A DNA stretch of 57,885 nt from contig JABIQN010000047.1 in the NCBI GenBank assembly GCA_018699395.1, positions 1-57,885 on the forward strand, given 5' to 3'. The notes below the pieces were generated by a model that saw only the letters and a list, made by a program, of their open reading frames with translations, did no database searches and was not told where the DNA came from. Shown here in pieces: positions 47,077 to 48,032 of the stretch. A program made the translations under genes and the position numbers. Source of the stretch: Gammaproteobacteria bacterium (GTDB taxonomy: Bacteria > Pseudomonadota > Gammaproteobacteria > Steroidobacterales > Woeseiaceae). The first letter of the stretch is position 1. Each line of letters begins with the position of its first letter.

Positions 47077-47089
47077 CGCCGTAGTATAT

Positions 47090-47140
47090 ACGGTTTTTCG
47101 TTAAAATAATTACGGTTTTTCGTTATTTACGATATTTCGT
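47090..47140. promoter_or_regulatory. Three ACG-N6-CGT repeats, candidate activator binding sites (UAS)
   Basis: ACGGTTTTTCGT at 47090-47101 and 47112-47123; ACGATATTTCGT at 47129-47140. Confidence 0.65.
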
Positions 47141-47187
47141 AATAACTAAATTATAGATAAGTTATTGTTTTTAAAGTATTTACAATG

Positions 47188-47205
47188 TTGGCACGACTCA
47201 TGCAA
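47188..47205 (+). promoter_or_regulatory. Sigma-54 (-24/-12) promoter
   Basis: TTGGCACGACTCATGCAA; GG and GC elements spaced 12 bp, close to the YTGGCACGNNNNTTGCW consensus. Confidence 0.88.
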
Positions 47206-47277
47206 TAAGAATACTGAAGACCAACTGAATGCAGCGGCGAGCAACCTCGACGCAACGATTAACTTTAGGACACGATA

Positions 47278-47415
47278 ATGAACAGCAAATACTTTGGAGA
47301 CGTACTCGCCCTTTTGGGTGCACTAGTTATTCTCATCGGCGTATCAGCCGCTGCCGACATCGCGTCGGCTGGCGACCTTGGCACGATTGAGATTTATAGC
47401 GCTCTCCAAAGGTAA
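47278..47415 (+). CDS. 45-aa hydrophobic small protein, predicted signal/TM, sigma-54-controlled candidate
   Basis: MNSKYFGDVLALLGALVILIGVSAAADIASAGDLGTIEIYSALQR*; AGGA RBS; downstream of the -24/-12 promoter. Confidence 0.65.
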   Translation: MNSKYFGDVLALLGALVILIGVSAAADIASAGDLGTIEIYSALQR

Positions 47416-47433
47416 GAGTTTCAAGAACCCCCG

Positions 47434-47595
47434 CCGGGGCTCGACTGGCCAGACCTCTTCCCCTGACTTCTTGGCTGTCGACCCCGGATCTCACCGAATG
47501 GAATTCGGTGAATAAACGGACCAGGACGGTCCGGCGGCACTCCCCCTGCCGTTAACGCTTAAGGCGCCGAGGATCACTCTTCGGCGCCTTTCTTT
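47434..47595 (+). ncRNA. Candidate structured RNA: five consecutive hairpins with GGA or C-rich loops
   Basis: Manual stem pairing: 47434-47487, 47491-47511, 47517-47533, 47535-47551, 47561-47590. Confidence 0.6.
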
Positions 47596-47596
47596 A
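47561..47596 (+). terminator. Strong rho-independent terminator
   Basis: AAGGCGCCGA-ggatcactct-TCGGCGCCTT followed by TCTTTATT, perfect 10-bp stem. Confidence 0.9.
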
Positions 47597-47704
47597 TTCC
47601 TGATTACTGTCGATGCTTCTCAGTACGATCAGCGCGATCTTCCGCTCAGCGGCGACTGACGTTATCGAGAGAGCTACGCAGGCCGTAAATAAATTTCGCA
47701 TCAT
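47594..47704 (-). CDS. 36-aa small ORF with signal-peptide-like N-terminus
   Basis: MMRNLFTACVALSITSVAAERKIALIVLRSIDSNQE*; TGATG overlap with the upstream small ORF. Confidence 0.4.
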   Translation of the reverse strand: MMRNLFTACVALSITSVAAERKIALIVLRSIDSNQE

Positions 47705-47859
47705 CAATCGTCCTCATCGTCTTCCCATTTCTTCAGCTTGCTCTTATCAACTCGTTTCCATTGGCGATCGCTCTGTCGCACATAAGAGATCACTTTCGCG
47801 ATTGTGTACGCGACAACAACAGCGATAAAAATCAGAAGATATTTCAGGCCATCAGGCAT
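47704..47859 (-). CDS. 51-aa single-TM small protein with acidic tail
   Basis: MPDGLKYLLIFIAVVVAYTIAKVISYVRQSDRQWKRVDKSKLKKWEDDEDD*; below the ORF-track cutoff. Confidence 0.6.
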   Translation of the reverse strand: MPDGLKYLLIFIAVVVAYTIAKVISYVRQSDRQWKRVDKSKLKKWEDDEDD

Positions 47860-48032
47860 TATGGAACTCTCAAAATGACACAAATTAGCAGTTTAAATCA
47901 TTGTAATGAACAATCTGATCGAACAACAATCTACGTTAGACCGCGCGACCGTTTATGAGTCACAAACCAGATGGATATTCAGCAGCACGAGTGACAAACT
48001 CTAAGTATAGAGCCCTGAGAATTTTAACTTCC

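Follow-up and report, generated by a model that had tools for sequence, protein, structure and literature searches.

We describe a locus of the Woeseiaceae in which five consecutive hairpins, lying downstream of a small peptide gene, almost certainly constitute a structured and conserved RNA. Our best reading, to which we attach reasonable though limited confidence, is that this is a sigma-54-dependent, trans-acting RNA whose C-rich loops mask the ribosome-binding sites of mRNAs for TonB-dependent receptors. The whole stretch of DNA analyzed, a contig of 57,885 nucleotides, is referred to below as the window, and the features of the locus are collected in table 1.

Fold, covariation and conserved loops

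An earlier reading of the sequence alone had placed five consecutive hairpins in this region, and all five are found in the predicted fold where that reading put them. The 176 nucleotides from 47425 to 47600 fold at -84.2 kcal/mol compared with -56.6 +/- 4.0 kcal/mol for shuffled sequences (z = -6.9), with none of 200 shuffles folding as well; the longer interval from 47211 to 47600 gives z = -5.4. Two details require correction. Hairpin H4 is present but has a 6-bp stem that extends over 47534-47552 rather than 47535-47551, and the terminator, which had been described as a 10-bp stem with a loop beginning with GGA, is a 13-bp stem with the loop UCAC, so that its GGA is paired and lies outside the loop. 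In 38 of 72 relatives (e.g., L010 and L014), the terminator stem encloses extra arms, including a conserved TCCGTGTCGGA / CCGCTCCGTGTCGGATCGG-like hairpin; these arms have been lost in the lineage of the window.

Table 1. Features of the peptide-RNA locus and their positions in the window
Feature	Position	Strand	Basis
Divergent sigma-54 enhancer-binding protein, 600 aa	45274-47076	-	Domain matches
Three palindromic operators, WACG-N6-CGTW	47089-47102, 47111-47124, 47128-47141	.	Motif scan
-24/-12 sigma-54 promoter, TGGCACGACTCATGCA (TGGCAC-GACTCA-TGCA)	47189-47204	+	Conserved element
Small ORF, 45 aa, one hydrophobic segment, MNSKYFGDVLALLGALVILIGVSAAADIASAGDLGTIEIYSALQR	47278-47415	+	ORF, coding signal
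CCCCC ahead of H1	47428-47432	+	CCCC in 46 of 72 loci
H1, two-part stem	47434-47487	+	Fold; every modeled pair covaries
H1 C-rich loop, CUCUUCCCCUGA	47455-47466	+	Fold
H2, GGA loop (GGA at 47500-47502)	47491-47511	+	Fold; 6 of 6 modeled pairs covary
H3, CGGACC-AGGAC-GGUCCG	47517-47533	+	97.4% of cells paired
H4, GCGGCA-CUCCCCC-UGCCGU (C-rich loop at 47540-47546)	47534-47552	+	99.2% of cells paired
Intrinsic terminator, 13-bp stem including G-U, U-rich tail	47561-47597	+	Terminator scan, fold

The sequence-only reading had named a lack of compensatory substitutions in homologs as grounds for refutation, and such substitutions are found: both sides change in 23 of 31 modeled pairs, and among the 72 relatives compensatory double changes fill 299 cells compared with 82 in shuffles. 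Standard pairs occupy 92.0% of the pair cells (78.1% when shuffled), the covariation score is 0.414 versus 0.164, and displacing the pairing partners by 1-3 columns leaves pairing at only 28-45%. The alignment of 72 sequences was fitted to the model, which favors structure; despite this, the margin over shuffles is very large. The stem of H4 is nearly invariant.

The C-rich loops are close to invariant as well. The H1 loop contains CCCC in all 72 sequences, CCCCC in 70 and UCUCUCC in 47, and the H4 loop contains CCCC in 69 and CCCCC in 63. The CCCCC that precedes H1 is probably single-stranded. GGA is found in the H2 loop of 53 sequences (8 expected) and in the H3 loop of 48 (3 expected).

Locus organization and distribution

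The gene divergent from the RNA encodes an enhancer-binding protein composed of two PAS domains, an AAA+ sigma-54 activation domain and a Fis-type helix-turn-helix (Pfam: PAS_9, PAS_4, Sigma54_activat at 1.5e-70, HTH_8), and we presume that this protein activates the peptide-RNA transcript. A homolog is encoded divergently at 71 of 72 RNA loci, the sole exception lying at a contig start. The three operator palindromes are the only matches to their motif in the entire window; at least one occurs in 70 of 71 loci, typically two to three per locus, with a mean of 2.1 compared with 0.004 in shuffles, and they are presumably the sites bound by the divergent activator. The -24/-12 promoter is present in 71 of 71 loci compared with 0.9% of shuffled upstream regions, and also in five of five further, more divergent activator loci; transcription is expected to start near 47215. 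That the peptide gene and the hairpins belong to a single sigma-54-dependent transcript is, in our judgment, very probable.

The interval between promoter and RNA holds an ORF in all 71 loci, and every ORF encodes a membrane or signal-like segment except one, for which the automatic ORF choice failed (L072). The ORF is under coding selection, as seen in its codon-position bias and in a ratio of synonymous to nonsynonymous single changes of ~2:1 to 7:1, and the peptide matches no family in Pfam or NCBIfam. Peptide length ranges from 30 to ~100 aa across loci while the hairpins are constant, and in some species the peptide is reduced to as few as 30 aa and the spacer extended to as many as ~100 nt with the RNA kept. 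Taken together, the conservation across the family, the covariation, the nearly invariant loops and the variable length of the peptide (30-100 aa) uphold the earlier suggestion that the region is a regulatory RNA or a dual-function mRNA rather than a passive untranslated region.

Beyond the terminator, positions 47610-47660 (minus strand) hold the decayed 3' end, with an in-frame stop, of a gene for a PGPGW membrane protein (PF09656). In 50 of 70 related loci, a copy of this gene runs convergently toward the RNA; a reduced genome of 1.5 Mb keeps the RNA and has lost the PGPGW gene at the locus. A small ORF on the minus strand (47707-47862; 52 aa from ATG, one hydrophobic segment, an acidic tail and no Pfam family) lies between the RNA and a gene for an ABC-transporter ATPase, and part of a bacterial 16S rRNA gene lies at the contig end (1-289, minus strand).

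A DNA search matched 19 of 40 relatives, each from the same genus; the match in genome G005 was weak and lay outside the RNA. Of the 73 genomes of this Woeseiaceae genus, 67 contain the RNA according to a covariance model built from 12 sequences, with one copy each except in a single genome whose copy is split across two contigs. The RNA is also found in five further genera of the family, with marginal detection in two. With the model of 72 sequences, another family of the order gave one strong match (G257, 6% contamination) that may itself be contamination, and a class-wide sample gave no match outside the family, nor any outside the genus. The H3-H4 pattern occurs on no viral contig, and a Nevskia match to it falls within protein-coding sequence and is due to chance. 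Rfam contains no match at the gathering threshold: BjrC68, Scr3202 and mmgR score 14-20 bits, far below the cut-off, by matching a hairpin plus terminator. The RNA is absent from Rfam and represents an undescribed family.

Full-length orthologs of the activator, 59-62% identical, are encoded in three further families of the order (f2, f3 and f9). In these families and in two divergent members of the genus, the same promoter and a small ORF are found on the divergent side of the activator gene, together with poly-C-loop hairpins, and the stems at these five loci are unrelated to H1-H4. In the other families, we noticed no hairpin with a GGA loop next to those with C-rich loops. Given that C-rich loops recur on unrelated stems and that 12 of the 72 RNAs have GGA in neither the H2 nor the H3 loop, we conclude that what is conserved in the RNA is its C-rich loops rather than its stems or GGA loops.

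Receptor genes as predicted targets and rival readings

The complement of the H1 loop consensus, CAGGGGGAG, was searched as CAGGGGGAG-N3-10-ATG and gave about twice as many matches as the reversed control. Inspection of 30 CAGGGGGAG loci identified ~14 plausible gene starts, seven of which belong to TonB-dependent receptors. Receptor genes were also gathered independently via their Plug domain and their leaders then read; in 80 receptor and 294 ordinary genes drawn from the same genomes, GGGGG is located in the ribosome-binding window of 35 receptor genes compared with two ordinary genes (p ~ 1e-24), where start codons were chosen by rule and two rules give 35 and 30-31 of the 80 receptors. 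GGAGG, found in three of 80 receptors and 18 of 294 ordinary genes, is not enriched in receptors, and neither is AAGGA. The earlier proposal that the C-rich loops can pair with G-rich sites is thereby supported and sharpened to a match between C5 and the GGGGG of TonB-dependent receptor genes.

Duplex energies between loop and site favor receptors in four of four genomes, with medians of -11.4 to -13.6 kcal/mol compared with -6.3 to -7.9 kcal/mol for controls, and this gap exceeds the one obtained with shuffled loops, which reproduce part of it because the receptor sites are G-rich. In our model, GGGGG is a GGAGG site with one A-to-G change that would still serve the ribosome through one G-U pair and would pair better with a C5 loop (-10.4 kcal/mol) than with the anti-Shine-Dalgarno sequence of the ribosome (-7.8 kcal/mol); for GGAGG, it is the ribosome that forms the stronger duplex (-8.7 vs. 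-6.0 kcal/mol). We also considered a general mimic of the anti-Shine-Dalgarno sequence and rejected it, since the C-rich loops pair poorly with ordinary AAGGAG sites, and the reading specific for GGGGG is preferred for this reason.

The genome of the window yielded four receptors, one with a B12 riboswitch, one with a TPP riboswitch, one with AGGGGGGAGAC-ATG and one other; the site TTTTAGGGGGGAGAC-ATG / AGGGGGGAGAC-ATG would form seven exact pairs with the H4 loop. GGGGG is missing from all ten receptor leaders in which a B12 or TPP riboswitch was confirmed, suggesting two exclusive classes of control; examples of riboswitch leaders are L217, L231, L249, L263 and L181 (cobalamin) and L225, L241, L270 and L182 (TPP). 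More than half of the receptor genes are without a GGGGG site. The reduced genome G000 contains one such site among only four receptors found, and its close relative G004 has none in the three receptors checked.

We considered whether the C-rich loops act in trans on targets other than receptors or bind a C-specific protein, with GGGGG being a separate trait of the order. In order relatives, GGGGG sites are present in two of 29 top-ranked receptor genes, which are of the vitamin/siderophore type, and in 12 of 39 lower-ranked ones, the latter sample overturning the clean negative that the former had suggested. Some families with GGGGG receptor sites yielded no full-length activator ortholog, which favors this alternative and indicates that the sites are not the private partner of the RNA; they may be older than the RNA, may be used by a different C-loop RNA or may owe their presence to something else. 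Leaders L360, L365, L368, L383 and L384 of genomes G028, G031 and G034 have GGGGG receptor sites with no activator ortholog detected, and another C-loop RNA may be present in these genomes. However, the complementarity between loop and GGGGG is exact, and receptors have GGGGG far more often than do the ordinary genes that accompany them in these genomes; we judge the alternative unlikely.

The sequence-only reading had also proposed binding of CsrA/RsmA, in which the GGA loops of H2 and H3, spaced ~24 nt apart, would titrate CsrA as CsrB and RsmY do. GGA is far above chance in both loops, often as ANGGA, and csrA is present in the genome of the window and in 49 of 61 genomes of the genus. The CsrB/RsmY/RsmZ RNAs have many conserved GGA loops, whereas there are only two candidates here and these are not constant: at least eight of the 12 RNAs without GGA in either loop come from genomes with a csrA match, the paired GGA of the terminator offers no further loop, and the versions in other families keep the C-rich loops, with no accompanying GGA-loop hairpin noticed. 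The proposal is left as a weak one; we regard CsrA titration as distinctly improbable and retain CsrA binding as a possible secondary function. That the hairpins merely stabilize the mRNA of a peptide that is the sole product is very unlikely: every locus does have a selected ORF separating promoter and RNA, which agrees with it, but protection of an mRNA requires neither near-invariant C-rich loops nor a conserved H3-H4 sequence, and the RNA stays where the peptide shrinks and the spacer grows.

Known systems, proposed mechanism and significance

The closest functional parallel is sX13 of Xanthomonas, which has rigid stems with three apical C-rich (4C/5C) loops and represses mRNAs whose start region carries G-rich motifs, some of them at ribosome-binding positions; experiments showed that repression requires both the loops and the motifs (PMC3771888). 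Here, too, several stems (H1 and H4) have apical C-rich loops and the predicted targets have a G-rich ribosome-binding motif. sX13 is a constitutive RNA of 115 nt that is encoded beside polA, occurs in Xanthomonadaceae only and has no peptide (PMC3771888), unlike the Woeseiaceae RNA, which is located 3' of a peptide gene under an enhancer-binding protein and sigma-54, is built from other stems and has receptors as its predicted targets. The RNA is not adjacent to polA, and sX13 is not among the Rfam matches of the region even at E<=10, a result that counts only if Rfam holds an sX13 model. Our best reading is that the RNA would work like sX13; membership in that family is not supported by homology or by locus.

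Cuckoo RNAs (CcsR, CIN1) also carry C-rich anti-Shine-Dalgarno loops. In the CcaF1-CcsR1-4 locus of Rhodobacter, an alternative-sigma promoter is followed by a small protein gene, several hairpin RNAs and one terminator; this alphaproteobacterial system is driven by RpoHI/HII, and CcaF1 is a DUF1127 RNA-binding protein (PMC10253847). The Woeseiaceae locus likewise combines a small protein gene and hairpin RNAs in one predicted transcription unit but differs in having sigma-54 instead of RpoHI/HII and a membrane or exported peptide instead of DUF1127, for which the peptide has no Pfam match. Homology to CcaF1-CcsR is unsupported by the available tests, and we do not consider the locus a homolog. 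Regulatory RNAs driven by an enhancer-binding protein and sigma-54 include Qrr, CrcZ and GlmY/GlmZ, and the Woeseiaceae locus resembles them in having both an enhancer-binding protein and a -24/-12 promoter for its predicted regulatory RNA. We know of no RNA of this type that has C5 loops, is preceded by a peptide gene or depends on this activator.

We hypothesize that a sigma-54-dependent dual transcript is made at this locus and that the hairpin region forms its 3' half. A PAS-PAS activator bound to the operator palindromes would respond to some signal by firing the -24/-12 promoter, and the transcript would yield a small membrane or exported peptide and end in the structured RNA, which may be processed from it. 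The role of the stems would be to display the C-rich loops; the loops of H1 and H4, and the CCCCC ahead of H1, would pair in trans with the GGGGG sites in mRNAs of TonB-dependent outer-membrane receptors and thereby block receptor translation. We favor such pairing, with moderate confidence, as the main function of the RNA, and the exact match between C-rich loops and G-rich receptor sites suggests that the RNA probably lowers nutrient uptake upon a sigma-54 signal. More tentatively, and with less than even confidence, peptide and C-loop RNA may be made together to reset the outer membrane, with GGGGG as the shared address tag of a large, repressed regulon of TonB-dependent receptors; poly-C loops would then have persisted from family to family within the order as their stems were exchanged for others.

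Woeseiales make up 1-22% of 16S sequences in marine sediment (PMC7082342). They are abundant there and mostly uncultured, and our literature searches found no RNA regulator described for the order. Woeseiales would gain an RNA family for which promoter type, activator and a predicted regulon of nutrient receptors can be named, and the locus would offer a clean test case for RNA control of a multigene family via one shared site variant, GGGGG versus GGAGG.
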